Shown: piece after piece, positions 1-6,620 of the stretch
How the letters are laid out: each line of letters opens with the position of its first letter
How positions within the stretch are numbered: position 1 is the first letter of the stretch
Assembly (NCBI GenBank): GCA_028293405.1
Contig: JAQGOW010000322.1
Location: 1-6,620, forward strand
Direction: 5' to 3'
Length of the DNA: 6,620 bases
Source of the DNA: Verrucomicrobiales bacterium
GTDB taxonomy: Bacteria > Verrucomicrobiota > Verrucomicrobiia > Limisphaerales > Palsa-1400
Position numbers and translations under genes: made by a program
Notes under the pieces: generated by a model
Databases searched by the model: none
Told to the model about the DNA's origin: nothing
What the model saw: only the letters and a program-made list of their open reading frames with translations

Positions 1-198
1 GACGAATATACGACGCTCGAATGTCGCGTGAATGCGACCGGTGATATTCAGTCGCTCTCGAAATTTATCTACGACGCCGAAAAAGATCCGCTCGCGGTGA
101 AGGTGGATTCGATTGAAATTTCCTCACGCGATAACAACGGTCAACAATTGAGCCTGGTGCTGCAAGTCAGCGGCTTGGTTTTGAATCAGGCGCAATAA
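1..198 (+). CDS. PilO/GspM-like secretion or pilus assembly protein, C-terminal fragment (5' end outside window)
   Basis: The reading frame is open from the first base and ends at TAA 196-198, giving the last 65 residues of a protein whose start lies upstream. The fragment has an alternating strand-helix-strand-strand pattern: ECRVNATGDIQSLSKFIYDA, then VKVDSIEISSRD, then QLSLVLQVSGLVLN. This resembles the C-terminal ferredoxin-like domain of PilO or GspM, inner-membrane proteins with a periplasmic domain that link the cytoplasmic motor to the outer-membrane secretin. The assignment rests on this fold-like pattern and on the GspC-like and secretin genes directly downstream; there is no diagnostic motif in so short a piece. 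The next gene starts only 2 bases after the stop, so the two are probably co-translated. A GspM assignment is equally possible, and a different inner-membrane component cannot be excluded. Confidence 0.6.
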   Translation, partial: DEYTTLECRVNATGDIQSLSKFIYDAEKDPLAVKVDSIEISSRDNNGQQLSLVLQVSGLVLNQAQ

Positions 199-200
199 GC

Positions 201-878
201 ATGAAGTTCAAAGTTCAAAATTTAAGGTTCAAAGTGTTTTCGCTTGGTTGCGTGTTCGCCGTACTAGCGAGCGTCAGCGGGAAAGCGGCCACAACGAACA
301 CTGTTCAGTCGACGAATGCGCCCGCGCCAACTAGCACGACCAATCCGGCGACTGGCACTGATTTCCCGTCGTTCAAGATCATTGCGCAACGAAACATTTT
401 TAGCGCAAACCGTTCGGGGCGCGTTGCGTCGGGACCGACACGCAAGCCGACGAAAGTCGATACGTTCACGCTCGTGGGAACGATTGATTATGCGAAAGGA
501 ATGTTTGCGATCTTTGACGGATCGAGCGGTTTGTTTCGCAAGACTTTGAAAGTCGGTGATTCGCTCGCCGGTTTTACGATTACTGACATCGACCTCGACC
601 ACGTCGCCATCGCAACTACCAACGGTGCGGATACGGTGTTGCGTGTTGGGACGCAAATGCGTCGTGTGGACGAAGGCGAGTGGGCTGTGGGTTCTGGTCC
701 CGCGCCGCAAATCGCGAAAGCAACCTCTGAGTCGACGGACGAAAAAGCGGACGCCGCACCGAGCGGAGAAAAATCTGATGGTTCGGACGAAGCACCCCCG
801 AGTGCTGAAACGAACGATATTCTGAAGAAACTCATGCAAAAACGCAAAGCGGAGGTAAAAAATGAAGCACCCGAATAA
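201..878 (+). CDS. GspC/PilP-like periplasmic homology-region protein
   Basis: This 225-residue protein has a basic N-terminus and a hydrophobic stretch (about 13-28) ending in SGKAA, which reads as a signal peptide or possibly an uncleaved anchor. A Thr/Asn/Pro-rich linker follows (31-54). Residues 57-152 look like the GspC homology region: FKIIAQRNIFSANR, where RNIF matches the N/RLF-type opening motif, then TFTLVGTID, FAIFDGSSGLFRKTLKVGDS and the DLDHVAI strand. In GspC and PilP this beta-domain contacts the secretin N0 domain and couples the inner-membrane platform to the channel; the secretin N-domain gene follows directly. The C-terminal 70 residues are acidic and low-complexity, ending in a charged helix (about 205-220). 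The start is uncertain. ATG 201 lies 2 bases after the upstream stop with no clear Shine-Dalgarno; GTG 234 (codon 12) has AAGG at 224-227 with a 6-base spacer and would give a more compact signal peptide. PilP is the main alternative name, but no good lipobox is present. Confidence 0.72.
   Translation: MKFKVQNLRFKVFSLGCVFAVLASVSGKAATTNTVQSTNAPAPTSTTNPATGTDFPSFKIIAQRNIFSANRSGRVASGPTRKPTKVDTFTLVGTIDYAKGMFAIFDGSSGLFRKTLKVGDSLAGFTITDIDLDHVAIATTNGADTVLRVGTQMRRVDEGEWAVGSGPAPQIAKATSESTDEKADAAPSGEKSDGSDEAPPSAETNDILKKLMQKRKAEVKNEAPE
206..233 (+). repeat. Three direct copies of GTTCAAA at the start of the GspC/PilP-like gene
   Basis: GTTCAAA occurs at 206-212, 213-219 and 227-233, the first two in direct tandem and the third after an 8-base AT-rich spacer. 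It encodes the repeated residues FKV/RFKV ahead of the hydrophobic core of the signal peptide. The AT-rich composition contrasts with the GC-rich genes around it. It may be a small repeat insertion or an initiation region for the downstream GTG 234, or simply low-complexity coding sequence. Confidence 0.6.
851..855 (+). promoter_or_regulatory. Ribosome binding site GGAGG for the secretin N-domain gene
   Basis: GGAGG is followed by a 6-base spacer (TAAAAA) and ATG 862-864. It lies inside the end of the upstream gene and is the only strong Shine-Dalgarno at a gene junction in the window. It fixes the start at 862 and indicates independent efficient initiation despite the 17-base overlap. Confidence 0.85.
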
Positions 879-2415
879 ATCTCTCATCATCATTTCTATT
901 TTCGCGAGCACTCTGCTGTTGCGCGCCGACGATCAACCGGCACCTGCCACTCTGGCAGACGCGCCAAAAGCGGAAGTTGCACCGGCGAAACCCGTGGCGG
1001 CAAAACCAGCCCCCGAGCGTAAGCCGGCTCAGCCACCGCAACTTGCGGTGACCGGCGAAATGGATCGCGGCCTGCGCTTTAACTTCCGTGGCGTGCCGCT
1101 CGAAACGGTGCTGAACTATCTCAGCGACGCGGCGGGATTCATCATCGTTCCCGAAGCGGATTTGAAGGGCAAAGTTGACATCATCAGCACGCAGCCATTG
1201 AACAAACAGGAAGCCGTCGATCTGCTCAACACCATCGTCAGCAAGAATGGTCTTGCGGCGATGCGAAATGGTCGCACGTTGACCATCATCACACAGGACG
1301 AAGCGAAGAAGCGCGACATCCCGGTCATGAGTGGGTCTGAACCGGATGATATTCCAAAAACGGACAACATCGTGACGCAAATTTTGCCGATGCATACGTT
1401 GAATGCTTCGCAATTGGCCAAAGACCTGTCGTCGTTGATCCCCCAGTCGGCAATCCTGACGGCCAACGAAGCCGGCAACGCTTTGGTCATGACCGGCACG
1501 CAAACGCAAATTCACCGGGTCGCCGAAATCATCAAGGCGCTTGATTCGTCTAGCATTTCCTCTATACGCGTTTTTGCGTTGCAATACGCGGATGCGAAAA
1601 CACTGGCCGCTGTCATTAAAGACGTTTTTGCATCTCCGGCCGAATCCTCCAAAGACGCGGTGCGCAACTATTTTCGCATGCGTTTCGGCGGCGGTGACGA
1701 GGGTGGCGATAGTAGTGATCGACATTCCTCCAAACATGGCAGCAGCAGCGGTGGTGGTGGTGGCGGCAGCTCGAAGGTGACAGCCGTAGCAGACGACTAC
1801 AGCAATTCTGTCATCGTCAGCGCCCCCGAAGATTTAATGACCACAATCGAGAAGGTTGTGAAGGAAGTGGATCAACCGGTCGAGGACGTCAGCAGTGTGC
1901 GCGTGTTCCGCTTGAAATTTGCCGACGCCGGCGAAATGGCGGAACTGCTGAACAACTTGTTCGGTGATGAAAATAAAACCGACGACAACAATCGCCCGCG
2001 ATTTTCTTTTTTCACCCCGCCGCAACCCAATTCTTCAGCGAGCGCAGGTGAAAGTGCCCGTTCGAAAAAGCAGGCCCGCGTCAGTGCCGTGGCCGACCGC
2101 CGCACCGGTTCGGTTGTCGTCACCGCTTCGAAGGTAATGATTGAGCAGATTGCAAAGATGATCCAGGACCTCGATTCCAATCCGGCTCGAAAACAAAAAG
2201 TGTACGTATACTCTTTGGAAAACGCCGATGTGCAACAGGTCGAAGGCGTGTTGCACGATCTATTCCAAACGACAACCACATCGAGCCAACGCAGCACACA
2301 ACAACAAAACAGCGATGCGTTGACCCAACGCCAAACCAGTGCTGCCCAACAAACCACGACCGGATCAACCTTCAGCATCGGCTCCGGCAACAACAGCGCA
2401 CTGCGCGGACAATAA
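862..2415 (+). CDS. gspD: Split secretin, N-terminal polypeptide (N0-N1-N2-N3 plus the first half of another N-domain; no barrel)
   Basis: This 517-residue exported protein is the periplasmic ring part of a type II secretion/type IV pilus secretin without its barrel. It has a signal peptide (hydrophobic 8-20, likely cleavage after LLLRA, residue 22) and a Pro/Ala/Lys-rich linker (24-62). An N0/STN-like domain covers 68-150 (LRFNFRGVPLETVLNYLSDA to NGRTLTIITQ). KH-like repeats follow: N1 170-228 (VTQILPMHTLNASQLAKDL to EIIKALD), N2 234-338 (IRVFALQYADAKTLAAVI, Gly/Ser loop 275-304, SNSVIVSAPEDL) and N3 345-439 (VRVFRLKFADAGEMAELL, loop 369-404, GSVVVTASKVMIEQI). A fourth begins at 446-469 (KVYVYSLENADVQQVEGVL), but only its first strand and helix are present; the chain then runs into a Gln/Thr/Ser-rich tail and stops. 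N0 would be the docking site for the GspC/PilP-like product of the preceding gene. The missing half-domain and the barrel are in the next gene. Some annotations would call this only a 'secretin N-terminal domain-containing protein'. Confidence 0.88.
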   Translation: MKHPNKSLIIISIFASTLLLRADDQPAPATLADAPKAEVAPAKPVAAKPAPERKPAQPPQLAVTGEMDRGLRFNFRGVPLETVLNYLSDAAGFIIVPEADLKGKVDIISTQPLNKQEAVDLLNTIVSKNGLAAMRNGRTLTIITQDEAKKRDIPVMSGSEPDDIPKTDNIVTQILPMHTLNASQLAKDLSSLIPQSAILTANEAGNALVMTGTQTQIHRVAEIIKALDSSSISSIRVFALQYADAKTLAAVIKDVFASPAESSKDAVRNYFRMRFGGGDEGGDSSDRHSSKHGSSSGGGGGGSSKVTAVADDYSNSVIVSAPEDLMTTIEKVVKEVDQPVEDVSSVRVFRLKFADAGEMAELLNNLFGDENKTDDNNRPRFSFFTPPQPNSSASAGESARSKKQARVSAVADRRTGSVVVTASKVMIEQIAKMIQDLDSNPARKQKVYVYSLENADVQQVEGVLHDLFQTTTTSSQRSTQQQNSDALTQRQTSAAQQTTTGSTFSIGSGNNSALRGQ

Positions 2416-2434
2416 TTTAGAAAGCAAAACCAAT

Positions 2435-3757
2435 ATGACTCCAAAACTGAACTTTCGTTTCTGGTTCATCATGGCCCTGTGTTGCGCGACTGCTCCGGCA
2501 TTGTTTGCGCAACGGTCCAGTAGTTCGTCGGGTTCATCCGGTTCTTCGGGCTTCAGCGGATCCCGCGGCAGCAGTGGGTTTTCGGGAGGATCGTCGAGTT
2601 CCGGTTCGCGCGGCAGTGCCAGCAGTGGCACGCGCGAATATCCGAACAATACAATGATCGGCGACGCTGTCATCACCAGCGATCCCGAAACGCGCCGGCT
2701 CATTGTGATCACCGACGAAGAAACCCATGAGCACATCAGCCAGGTGATTTCGAACCTCGATCGTCCCAAGCCACAGGTGTTAATTAAAGTTGTGTTCGCG
2801 GAAGTCACTTACAACAACGCGCTTGATTTGGGTGTTGAAGGCAGTTTCGTCCACAACACCGGGTCGTTCATGGGCATGGTCACGAACATCAATGTATTGA
2901 GCAATGGCACGCAAGTGCCCGTGATCGGACAGCAGTCGATGAACTCAGTTGTCGGCGGTAATACCAGTTTTGGTTTGGCCAATTCATTAGGTGTCCCGGG
3001 CGGTGCCTTCGCCCAGCTCACCGGACAGGATTACATGGTGACGCTCAAAGCCGCTGCGCAAAAAGGCAAAGTCGAAATCCTTTCGCGTCCGTCGATCCTC
3101 GCGCGCAACAACCAAAAAGCCAGCATCGTTGTGGGCCAGGAAGTCCCGCTCATCACAGGTGTTAACTACGACTCGTTCGGTAATCAGCGCAACGCGATCA
3201 CCTATCAAAACGTCGGGATAATCTTGGATGTGACGCCGTTCATTACGCCAGACGGCATGGTTGAAATGATTCTCAAACCGCAGATTTCTTCGGTCGACCC
3301 GAATTCAACGGTTCAAATATCCGGTGCGACAACGAACAGCGGCGCCGTTAACGCGCCTGTCATTGACATTCGCGCCGCTGACACCGTCGTGGTCACGCCC
3401 GATGGAAACACCGTCGTCATCGGCGGTTTGATGCAGAACAATCGCGCGAACACTGTCACTAAAGTTCCATTGCTCGGGGACATTCCGATTCTCGGCGCGC
3501 TGTTCCGACATAAAGTGACGTCAGACACGAAAACCGAATTGCTCATTTTCCTGACGCCTTATGTTGTGCAAACGCCGCATCAACTCGCATTGATGTCCAC
3601 GAGCGAAACTACGCGCATGCAGCTCCAGCCAAATGCGTTCACTGAGAAGGAACTCAATCAATTTCTCGACAACGTGCAGTATCGTAAAAAAGACGAAGTC
3701 AAAGTCGCACGTCCGCCCAGGTCCGTCGATTCGGGTTCCCCAAAGAACCAAAATTAA
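2435..3757 (+). CDS. gspD: Split secretin, C-terminal polypeptide (end of an N-domain plus outer-membrane secretin barrel)
   Basis: This 440-residue protein forms the outer-membrane channel. Its own signal peptide has a hydrophobic core at 9-20 and probable cleavage after ALFA (22-25). A Ser/Gly-rich tract follows (27-65). Residues 74-113 (GDAVITSDPETRRLIVIT, then THEHISQVISNLDRP) are the second half of a KH-like N-domain. The secretin domain starts at about 114 (QVLIKVVFAEVTYNNALDLG) and ends at about 378 (LLIFLTPYVV). It includes SRPSILARNNQKASIVVGQE, the strand region TYQNVGIILDVTPFIT, the hydrophobic VVIGGLM and the family signature VPLLGDIPILGALFR at 344-358. A 62-residue polar tail follows, which might serve as a pilotin-binding or outer-membrane-adjacent segment. 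The start is chosen at ATG 2435 because it gives a complete signal peptide; the frame also extends upstream to a GTG at 2339, which would bury that segment. The gap to the previous gene is 19 bases and the ribosome site is weak (AGAAAG, 2419-2424). Confidence 0.92.
   Translation: MTPKLNFRFWFIMALCCATAPALFAQRSSSSSGSSGSSGFSGSRGSSGFSGGSSSSGSRGSASSGTREYPNNTMIGDAVITSDPETRRLIVITDEETHEHISQVISNLDRPKPQVLIKVVFAEVTYNNALDLGVEGSFVHNTGSFMGMVTNINVLSNGTQVPVIGQQSMNSVVGGNTSFGLANSLGVPGGAFAQLTGQDYMVTLKAAAQKGKVEILSRPSILARNNQKASIVVGQEVPLITGVNYDSFGNQRNAITYQNVGIILDVTPFITPDGMVEMILKPQISSVDPNSTVQISGATTNSGAVNAPVIDIRAADTVVVTPDGNTVVIGGLMQNNRANTVTKVPLLGDIPILGALFRHKVTSDTKTELLIFLTPYVVQTPHQLALMSTSETTRMQLQPNAFTEKELNQFLDNVQYRKKDEVKVARPPRSVDSGSPKNQN
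2513..2629 (+). repeat. Ser/Gly-rich low-complexity coding tract after the secretin signal peptide
   Basis: Residues 27-65 of the barrel polypeptide are nearly all Ser and Gly with occasional Phe, Arg and Ala, built from irregular SSG and GFSG units. At DNA level the units are imperfect (for example GGCAGCAGTGG near 2566 and GCCAGCAGTGG near 2618), so this is a degenerate repeat, not a perfect tandem array. It is expected to be a flexible linker. Confidence 0.8.
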
Positions 3758-3771
3758 TTTATACATACGTA

Positions 3772-5265
3772 ATGATCACTCGTCGCAACTGGCTTGTTTA
3801 CGGAGTGCTCATTGCTGTTTGGGTGGGGTTGGTTGGCTGGCAGATTGCCGAGCACATACGCGTCCAGCGTGATGGTCATGCCGCGCTCGTGAATCGGGCG
3901 AAGGACATTTCGAATACGCTTGGAGTTGTGTTGCGTGCTCAAGGGCGGTTTTTCGGCGTCATTACCAAGGAGCAACTCGAGACGGCGATGAAGGCGCTCG
4001 TCAAGCCCGGCGAGCTTGATGGCATCGCGGTTCTTAACGAATCCGGGGATGTTGTTGCAGCGGCAGGCACGCCTGTGGATTTGCCGGTGAAGACGTCGAA
4101 CACCTCCACTGAATATTGGGGCGACGAAAATGTTATGCTGATGAACCTGGTCGATCTCGGCACGAACATGAGTTCGACAGTTGAGAACACGAACATCACC
4201 GTCATCTTGCCGGAAACTCAACAACGGCAAATCTTCAGCAGATCAAACCGGCCAACCTCCTCGCTGAACACCAATGACGTTGGCACCAACGTTAGTCGCG
4301 CGCAGGGACGAGGCGAAGGACGCGGCCAACGTTGGGGTGGTCGTCCGCCGGATTATTTCCGCAAGCCTTCGTGGATGAACGAAGCCGATTACAAAGCGCT
4401 GATTCAAAAACAAGGCGTGCACAGCTTCGCTCTCGTGCTTTCGACGCAGCCGATTCGCGCTTTTACTTTCCACGATTTATTGATGCGCCTGACTGTTGTT
4501 TTCCTTGCGACCCTTGCAGCTGGCGGCGGTTTTCTCGCCTGGCGTAACGTCGCAAAAAGTTCTGAACTGCAAATTCGTCTCGTGCGCGCGAGCGAATTGA
4601 ACTCGCACTTGAAGGAAATGAATCTCGCCGCCGCCGGTCTCGCGCACGAAACGCGCAATCCACTGAACATTATTCGCGGACTCGCTCAACTCATTTGCAA
4701 ACAGGATGACGTCTCGCCGGAGATTGCGAAGAAAACCCGCGACATCATCAATGAAGCCGATCGCCTCACTGCGCAGCTCAACGAATTTATAAATTACTCC
4801 CGACCTCGCGAGGTGCGACGCAGTGTTGTCGATGTCCAGTTTGTCGTGTCCGAAGTTGTGCGCGCGCTCAACTACGACATCGAGGAAAAGAAGATCACGC
4901 TGCAAATTCCGGCGGAGCCGTTGAAGATTCAGGCCGACGAACAACTGCTCCGTCAGGCGTTATTTAATTTGGTGCTCAACGCGATTCAGGCAGCCAACAT
5001 CGGTGGGACCATCGAAGTGCGTTGTGACAAAACTTCGCAGAACGACGCCTACATCGAAATTCGCGATAACGGTCCCGGCGTCTCCTCCGAACATCGCAAC
5101 GAAATTTTCAAACCGTACTTTACGACGAACGAAAGAGGCACCGGTCTTGGTTTGGCGGTCGTTCAGCAGATCATTCTCGCGCACGGTTGGGAAATTTTGT
5201 ATCTGCCCAACGAACCAAAAGGCGCGATTTTCCGCATCGACCATGTTAAAGTGGCGGCGGCGTGA
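3772..5265 (+). CDS. Two-TM membrane sensor histidine kinase (NtrB/AtoS/PilS type)
   Basis: This 497-residue kinase should autophosphorylate and pass phosphate to the response regulator encoded immediately downstream. TM1 is at about 7-24 and TM2 at about 238-257, enclosing a roughly 210-residue periplasmic sensor region. That region begins with a helix and a PAS/Cache-like strand pattern (LDGIAVLNESGDVVAAAG, 82-99), continues through a long Thr/Asn-rich and Arg/Gly-rich stretch (about 105-200), and ends in a strand (HSFALVLS). No HAMP domain is obvious between TM2 and the kinase core. The H-box is GLAHETRNPLNIIRGLAQLI, with phosphoacceptor His292. The N-box is LFNLVLNAIQA (Asn403), G1 is DNGPGV (432-437), the F-box is IFKPYFTT (445-452) and G2 is GTGLGL (456-461), so all catalytic motifs are intact. 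ATG 3772 follows the secretin stop after 14 AT-rich bases without a visible Shine-Dalgarno. The gene overlaps the regulator by 4 bases (GTGA). The signal it senses is unknown. Confidence 0.93.
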   Translation: MITRRNWLVYGVLIAVWVGLVGWQIAEHIRVQRDGHAALVNRAKDISNTLGVVLRAQGRFFGVITKEQLETAMKALVKPGELDGIAVLNESGDVVAAAGTPVDLPVKTSNTSTEYWGDENVMLMNLVDLGTNMSSTVENTNITVILPETQQRQIFSRSNRPTSSLNTNDVGTNVSRAQGRGEGRGQRWGGRPPDYFRKPSWMNEADYKALIQKQGVHSFALVLSTQPIRAFTFHDLLMRLTVVFLATLAAGGGFLAWRNVAKSSELQIRLVRASELNSHLKEMNLAAAGLAHETRNPLNIIRGLAQLICKQDDVSPEIAKKTRDIINEADRLTAQLNEFINYSRPREVRRSVVDVQFVVSEVVRALNYDIEEKKITLQIPAEPLKIQADEQLLRQALFNLVLNAIQAANIGGTIEVRCDKTSQNDAYIEIRDNGPGVSSEHRNEIFKPYFTTNERGTGLGLAVVQQIILAHGWEILYLPNEPKGAIFRIDHVKVAAA

Positions 5266-6620
5266 AGGATTACGTGCAAACATCACCAGCAAAGCCCCGC
5301 GTGCTCATCGTCGATGACGATGCGAGCCAACGCAGCTTGCTCGATTCTTTTTTGGGCGGGCAGGGCTTCGACACCGTTGCCGTTGAATCCGGCGAACGCG
5401 CCTTGGACGTTTTGCGCAAGGGTGGGGTGGACATGATGGTTTCCGATGTTCGTATGCCTGGTCTTTCCGGTATCGAAACCTTACGTCTCGCTCGACAGGA
5501 ACACGCCCGTCTGCCGGTCTTGCTCGTGACTGCCTTCGCTGATATTCGCCAGGCTGTTGACGCGATGCGCGATGGCGCGGTGAATTATTTACCCAAGCCG
5601 ATCGACCTCGACGAATTGCTGGCATCGGTTCGTCATGCGACCGGCCTGGCTGAAAACGCGCCGCGGGCATTCAGCGGTTCACGCGAACTTCCGGCGCACG
5701 TCATCGCGGAAAGTCCGTTGATGCAATCCGTCTTTCGCGACATCGCGCTCATCGCTCCCTCCGAAAGCCGCGTGTTGATCACTGGCGAAAGCGGCGTTGG
5801 AAAAGAAGTCGTCGCTGATGTCATTCATTTGTGGAGCAAACGCGCTGACGGCCCGCTCGTGAAAGTAAATTGCGCTGCGCTTCCCGAAACACTTCTCGAA
5901 AGCGAATTGTTCGGTCATGAAAAAGGTTCGTTCACCGGCGCGAGCGCGCAACGCATTGGCCGATTCGAACAAGCCAACGGCGGCACGATCATGCTCGATG
6001 AAATTGCCGAAATGTCGCCGGGCCTTCAGGCGAAGCTTTTGCGCGTGACGCAAAACGGCTCCTTTCAACGCATCGGTTCCAATACGGAAATTCGTTCGAA
6101 TGCTCGCATCCTCGCGGCCAGCAATCGCAACCTTGAAGAGGAAGTTAAGAAAAGCCGTTTCCGCGAAGATCTGTTTTACCGTCTGAACGTCGTTGAAATG
6201 AATATTCCGCCATTGCGCGAGCGTCCGGAGGACGTTCTGGCTTTGGCGCAAAAATTCATCGAAGAACTTACGCAAGGCCGCTCGCGTTTGTCTTCGGCGG
6301 TCGGCGAGTTGCTGAAAAACTATTCATGGCCCGGCAACGTCCGCGAATTGCACAACGCCATGGAACGCGCCGCATTGCTTTCGCGCGGCGAAATGATTTT
6401 GCCGGACCATTTGCCGATGCGCGTTCGGACCTCTGCGGAGCCCGCGCCGACGCCAGTCATCGACGAACAAAAGCTCGATGACATTGAGCGCGCCGCGTTA
6501 TTGCTGACGCTGAAAAAGCACGACTACAACCGCACCGAAACTGCCAAAGCGCTTGGTATCAGCCGTCGCGCCCTCATCTACAAGCTCCAACGCTTGCGCG
6601 AATTAGGCTATCAGATAGAC
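5262..6620 (+). CDS. NtrC-family sigma-54-dependent response regulator (3' end beyond window)
   Basis: The frame is open for 453 codons to the last base with no stop; family length is typically about 450-470 residues, so only a few codons are probably missing. The receiver domain (12-125) has acidic residues Asp18-20, phosphoacceptor Asp62 (SDVRMPG), Thr90 and Lys112 (LPKP). The AAA+ sigma-54 interaction domain (about 148-388) has Walker A GESGVGKE (175-182), a GSFTGA loop (222-227), Walker B IMLDE (243-247), FREDLFYRLNV (300-310) and WPGNVREL (356-363). The C-terminal Fis-type DNA-binding domain (404-453) has a helix-turn-helix at about 423-443 (NRTETAKALGISRRALIYKL). When phosphorylated by the upstream kinase it should bind enhancer sites and use ATP hydrolysis to open RpoN promoters. 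GTG 5262 overlaps the kinase stop as GTGA, which favours translational coupling. GTG 5274 is an alternative start, with AAGGA at 5265-5269 and a short 4-base spacer; both keep the whole receiver domain. Confidence 0.94.
   Translation, partial: MKDYVQTSPAKPRVLIVDDDASQRSLLDSFLGGQGFDTVAVESGERALDVLRKGGVDMMVSDVRMPGLSGIETLRLARQEHARLPVLLVTAFADIRQAVDAMRDGAVNYLPKPIDLDELLASVRHATGLAENAPRAFSGSRELPAHVIAESPLMQSVFRDIALIAPSESRVLITGESGVGKEVVADVIHLWSKRADGPLVKVNCAALPETLLESELFGHEKGSFTGASAQRIGRFEQANGGTIMLDEIAEMSPGLQAKLLRVTQNGSFQRIGSNTEIRSNARILAASNRNLEEEVKKSRFREDLFYRLNVVEMNIPPLRERPEDVLALAQKFIEELTQGRSRLSSAVGELLKNYSWPGNVRELHNAMERAALLSRGEMILPDHLPMRVRTSAEPAPTPVIDEQKLDDIERAALLLTLKKHDYNRTETAKALGISRRALIYKLQRLRELGYQID

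Follow-up and report, generated by a model that had tools for sequence, protein, structure and literature searches.

Can the secretin of a type II secretion system (T2SS) be built from two exported chains that divide one folded domain between them? This question is raised by a stretch of 6620 bases, here called the window, which is the whole of contig JAQGOW010000322.1 from the draft genome (3.85 Mb, 67% complete) of a Verrucomicrobiales bacterium. Two neighboring genes of the window encode the N-domains (chain 1) and the barrel (chain 2) of a secretin, and the boundary between them falls inside one N-domain. We found the same layout in 163 genomes, and consider it likely that the GspD-type secretin of this lineage is encoded by two neighboring genes whose exported chains join outside the inner membrane, each supplying half of a KH-like N-domain. 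It has long been asked how a secretin ring is assembled and how it contacts the inner-membrane platform. With a natural and conserved division of stalk from barrel, the two steps could be separated, on pieces that could be expressed, purified and mixed; such a division would also be evidence that a secretin N-domain stays together when its parts are not covalently linked.

First, we located the break. Toward its end at 2415, chain 1 reads KQKVYVYSLENADVQQVEGVLHDLF (2191-2265), followed from 2269 by a tail of 48 residues rich in Q, T, S and N. Chain 2, from the ATG at 2435, reads MTPKLNFRFWFIMALCCATAPALFA-Q, a Ser/Gly linker, GDAVITSDPETRRLIVITDEETHEHISQVISNLD (from 2660) and then the barrel. 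In Pfam, residues 77-114 of chain 2 matched only columns 32-69 of Secretin_N (E 3.2e-5; 24.5 bits, below the curated cut-off of 28.2), and residues 207-379 matched the Secretin domain (165.4 bits, cut-off 27.5). Both N0 and Secretin_N (145.3 bits, cut-off 28.2) passed their cut-offs in chain 1; the third full Secretin_N stretch stopped at residue 442, and nothing in Pfam matched between this residue and the end of the chain. A profile built on the end of chain 1 also matched the starts of the earlier repeats; by its sequence and this profile, the end looks like the start of a fourth Secretin_N repeat. The broken domain of the window would thus be the fourth repeat, in the barrel-proximal place. 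The preliminary description, which was made from the letters of the window, had read strand 1, helix 1 and a Gln/Thr/Ser-rich tail at the end of chain 1, and a signal-like start, a Ser/Gly linker, the missing strands with helix 2 and the barrel in chain 2; sequence and profiles confirmed both halves of this picture. Its further claim that the upstream repeats carry loops at the same helix 1-strand 2 position held for N2 and N3 and failed for N1, as judged by the secondary structure of locus L036.

Second, the occurrence of the split was surveyed. Initially, 159 loci were sorted by profiles of both chains, loci from other orders and another class were added later, and half-domain profiles were used to locate the chain 1 and chain 2 halves. 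Both halves were found in 172 loci, corresponding to 163 genomes after removal of second copies (150 in the order of the window and 13 outside it). L119, whose contig ends before chain 1, was dropped, as were L036-L043 and L169, which are second copies of counted genomes. Of the 320 genomes of the order, 194 matched chain 2 at 1e-70; 150 of these were read, together with G035 (a weaker match), whereas 44 (mostly lower-scoring), as well as G329 and G465 outside the order, were left unread. Both genes were present in 149 of the 150 genomes read in the order, and the remaining one was cut by a contig end. The gene was found in 34 of 188 genomes of a class sample that included the order and in 7 of 240 genomes of a phylum sample, and its distribution outside the order was patchy: 5 of 11 genomes in the order of G324, 3 of 223 in that of G418, and 8 of 146 in the class of G536 (five split and three single-chain secretins).

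The preliminary description had proposed a secretin on two exported chains broken inside one N-domain, and had named a fused close relative, interrupted in this sequence by a frameshift or stop, as what would speak against it. The layout recurred in 163 genomes; none of these had both halves in a single open reading frame (ORF), and the single-chain relatives lay outside the split group. With a contig of 6620 bases from a 67%-complete genome, one might suspect that the split reflects faulty sequencing or assembly, or that the gene has recently become a pseudogene. However, the split layout is also present in G418, a single contig of 4.15 Mb, and draft assembly is therefore not its cause; recurrence in 163 genomes refutes the error or pseudogene reading, to which we give practically no weight.

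Third, the two genes appeared to be separate. In the window their ORFs are in separate frames with a gap of 19 nt. Across the loci, the gap was 0-60 nt in 143 of 158 cases, three pairs overlapped and 12 gaps were wider (maximum 809 nt), the probable Met of chain 2 lying a median of 31.5 nt past the stop of chain 1. Two loci, L010 and L049 (G041 and G072), had an intergenic gap of about 805 nt, where about 30 is usual. If programmed frameshifting or stop read-through yielded one fused protein, stop-to-stop frames that touch or overlap would be expected, and many loci have them. Nevertheless, the three relative frames were used about equally (54, 48 and 59 of 161 distinct pairs for frames 0, 1 and 2), and a signal-peptide-like segment is located at the would-be junction, which makes a fused product very improbable. 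Open frames inside the split group, 765 to 1320 aa long, had resembled fusions and were rejected: in those that were read (L028, L042, L065, L069, L071 and L164) the chain 2 frame was open far upstream with chain 1 in another frame, and the one-ORF forms of L063 and L149 were only apparent, the chain 1 profile cross-matching chain 2.

Export was assessed with a simple in-house rule rather than SignalP (a positive residue, a nine-residue stretch whose mean hydropathy is at least 1.8, and small-x-small). Of the 172 chain 2 starts, 169 satisfied the rule, compared with 9 once they were shuffled, as did 70 of 75 readable chain 1 starts; both chains of the window satisfied it as well. Thus, both chains are predicted to be exported, and in the related genomes the split is kept together with signal-like starts on both chains.

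Do the two halves meet? Those of a relative, modeled in tethered form with AlphaFold, formed one KH-like domain (64 residues superposed on HofQ at 2.1 A), in line with the single domain that the preliminary description had expected of the complex, and chain 1 of this relative folded alone lost strand 1. Foldseek on the whole tethered model gave a query TM of up to 0.20, a low value expected from the long disordered linkers. In the chain 1 half, numbered as in L036, K493, Q494, V496, V498, L501, N503, A504 and F517 were invariant over 20 rows. In cells, the two chains would be joined by strand complementation. Half-to-half covariation gave no usable signal; this analysis was underpowered, its control failed too, and it was counted neither way. 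An L-x-R motif such as NALTTR recurs in the chain 1 tail (151 of 172 loci, by a loose pattern), and the narrow range of tail length together with this motif is more constraint than a plain spacer should show.

If the halves do not pair, the chains might be exported separately and share no domain, chain 2 alone making the ring, chain 1 docking elsewhere and the half-domains being remnants. For rhizobia, it has been proposed that a standalone N-terminal chain was retained as a linker (PMC3459982). However, several core positions are conserved in both halves, unlike in a remnant, and the tethered model gives one domain whereas chain 1 alone loses a strand; we regard this alternative as unlikely. 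The halves could also pair across neighboring protomers, a swap locking the ring rather than the single protomer. There would be room for it in the flexible tail (median 51 aa) and in the segment between the Met of chain 2 and strand 2 (median 64 aa), but nothing favors a swap over pairing within a protomer, and it appears somewhat less probable still.

To examine the origin of the split, the L036 pair was read as one chain and used as a search query, and the best 120 of 739 matches were examined, 119 of which were new. Both halves were in one chain in 113 of the 119, and in 113 of the 114 with at least 650 aa; the six without the first half were P0242, P0251, P0253, P0277, P0320 and P0322, five of them under 650 aa. 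All 13 single-chain relatives with an organism name belonged to Planctomycetota (e.g., Tepidisphaeraceae, Phycisphaerales and Sedimentisphaerales). The second half scored 37-59 bits in the single-chain relatives, and the first half matched weakly (median 11 bits, above 5 in 89 of 113); a start resembling strand 1-helix 1 was seen in 105 of 113 by a motif check without a profile. The insert between the halves had a median of 82 aa (5-95%: 43-105), was rich in G, S, T, A, Q and N, and contained no hydrophobic stretch in any of the 113. Three inserts over 120 aa (P0273, P0315 and P0329) are doubtful, the profile having caught the preceding repeat in P0273. Since these relatives carry a low-complexity insert at the break, the break falls at their disordered-looking loop. 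One of the matches, P0277 (717 aa), combines GspE-type domains (PF05157 and PF00437) with Secretin in one chain, and may be a gene-calling error.

A quick unrooted tree was built from 81 barrels: 40 of the 172 split forms, 28 of 114 single-chain relatives and 13 of 18 other single-chain secretins (five were lost to a length filter). The split forms made up one side of a branch with support of 95 in the SH-like approximate likelihood ratio test, and the single-chain secretins L175, L180 and L181, which have no chain 1 half, fell outside this group. Support for the Planctomycetota group was only 15, and the tree flags long branches meeting. The simplest history would be a single break, after which a signal peptide was gained. 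On this view, the ancestral gspD encoded a single chain with a long loop at the helix 1-strand 2 site; it would have been broken once, and when a signal peptide had arisen at that place, the loop ends became the chain 1 tail and the chain 2 linker. The sheet of chain 2 would be completed by the strand 1 and helix 1 that chain 1 supplies, and the chain 1 stalk would be held non-covalently beneath the barrel ring, with one copy of each chain per protomer. Beyond this, the secretin could be an obligate two-subunit one, whose ring and stalk undergo export and assembly independently and are joined by strand complementation inside one N-domain, an arrangement fixed once and kept clade-wide in which a platform-assembled stalk couples to a preset outer-membrane ring; this broader proposal is tentative, and we hold it at slightly under even chances.

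The preliminary description had also suggested that the N-part could be separately regulated or exchanged. This suggestion found no support: the genes are close together, as given above, and the distances of chain 1 tracked those of chain 2 (r 0.685 over 157 genomes; at most 0.055 in 500 shuffles). The nearest neighbor was identical for both chains in only 84 of the 157 genomes, so single exchanges of the chain 1 part may have taken place.

Regarding family membership, each chain missed the equivalog cut-off of TIGR02517 (351.35), with 222.4 bits for chain 1 and 257.7 for chain 2, and neither would thus be filed alone as GspD; a pair from a relative, read through as one, reached 444.6. The PilQ cut-off (TIGR02515, 284.35) was missed as well (63.3 and 181.7 bits). 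Judged by their sequences, the two chains together are a GspD-type T2SS secretin, for which a multimeric outer-membrane ring secreting folded proteins would be predicted. The order of N0, Secretin_N repeats and Secretin barrel is that of GspD, as are the T2SS gene neighbors; the differences are two genes, a second signal-like start and a break inside the last N-domain. Ordinary GspD has one Secretin_N repeat fewer than the secretin of the window. The long single-chain GspD proteins, the named ones from Planctomycetota, are the nearest single-chain relatives found and carry an insert of comparable composition where the break lies, but in one chain and without the hydrophobic stretch. Database names hide the split: both chains are called 'general secretion pathway protein D', or chain 1 is a 'secretin N-terminal domain-containing protein'.

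Split secretins are already known, with RhcC1 (NolW)/RhcC2 of the rhizobial type III secretion system (T3SS) and HrcIIC1/HrcIIC2 of the P. syringae T3SS-2 (PMC3574062 and PMC3973906), and as here they have the N-part and the barrel part on two genes. However, these pairs arose otherwise: their parts are of distinct origins, and RhcC2 is Tad-like and carries a BON domain (PMC4500985; PMC3459982). Chain 2 matched no BON family in Pfam at E up to 0.1. The rhizobial genes also lie apart, in contrast with the adjacent pair of the window, and no domain divided between chains is described in PMC4500985 or in the available parts of PMC3574062, PMC3973906 and PMC3459982. No paper on a split secretin of Verrucomicrobiota was found in the open-access literature, most subscription papers being outside the search, so novelty is not implied; the available main text of PMC6668835 has no word beginning with Verrucomicrobi.

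The features of the window are listed below.

Features of the 6620-base window, with the evidence for each
Feature	Position	Strand	Evidence or content
End of GspM-like gene	1..198	+	T2SSM_b E 0.02, 15.2 bits, under cut-off 21.7
GspC-like gene	201..878	+	GspC_delta 26.5 bits, far under cut-off 150; otherwise position
Secretin chain 1, 517 aa	862..2415	+	Signal-like start, N0, three full Secretin_N, half of a fourth, tail
GspD-like N0 domain, chain 1	1081..1275	+	35.3 bits, cut-off 27
Putative first half (strand 1, helix 1) of broken Secretin_N, end of chain 1	2191..2268	+	Sequence; profile
Low-complexity tail of chain 1	2269..2412	+	35-68 aa, median 51, over 172 loci
Secretin chain 2, 440 aa	2435..3757	+	Pfam; TIGR02517 257.7 bits
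Predicted signal peptide of chain 2	2435..2509	+	Hydropathy rule; cleavage site judged by eye
Ser/Gly linker of chain 2	2510..2659	+	Sequence
Second half (strands 2 and 3, helix 2) of broken Secretin_N, chain 2	2660..2764	+	Secretin_N columns 32-69
Secretin (barrel) domain, chain 2	3053..3571	+	E 1.2e-48 and 1.8e-49

The genes, all on the + strand, follow the order GspM-like end, GspC-like, chain 1, chain 2, histidine kinase and sigma-54 response regulator, and the named close relatives of both chains belong to Limisphaerales or Verrucomicrobia(ta). The window itself gave only the weak M and C matches, and its assignment to a T2SS cluster comes through the relative L183. There, T2SSF, T2SSG, GspH, T2SSK and T2SSM_b scored above cut-off upstream of both chains, the gene at the GspM-like position matching T2SSM_b at 2.2e-9; an L-like gene was below cut-off (PilM_2), and the gene at the C position had no match. 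The histidine kinase directly follows chain 2 both in the window (3772-6620 region), where the sigma-54 response regulator is next to it, and in G053 (L183:10312-11877).

Domain number also varied among the secretins. Chain 1 of L165, L166, L167 and L177 lacked about 107 profile columns (239-345), roughly one N-domain, and the position of the break was unchanged. Secretin matches were found in open frames of 3112-5155 aa in at least 10 of 58 related genomes. Two such giant secretins, L200:1405-13056 (3883 aa, G034) and L201:1383-13319 (3978 aa, G031), each had 35 Secretin_N and one Secretin in a single ORF, with a GspD-like N0 listed in L200 only, below cut-off; to our knowledge, this number of N-domains is far above that of any other secretin.
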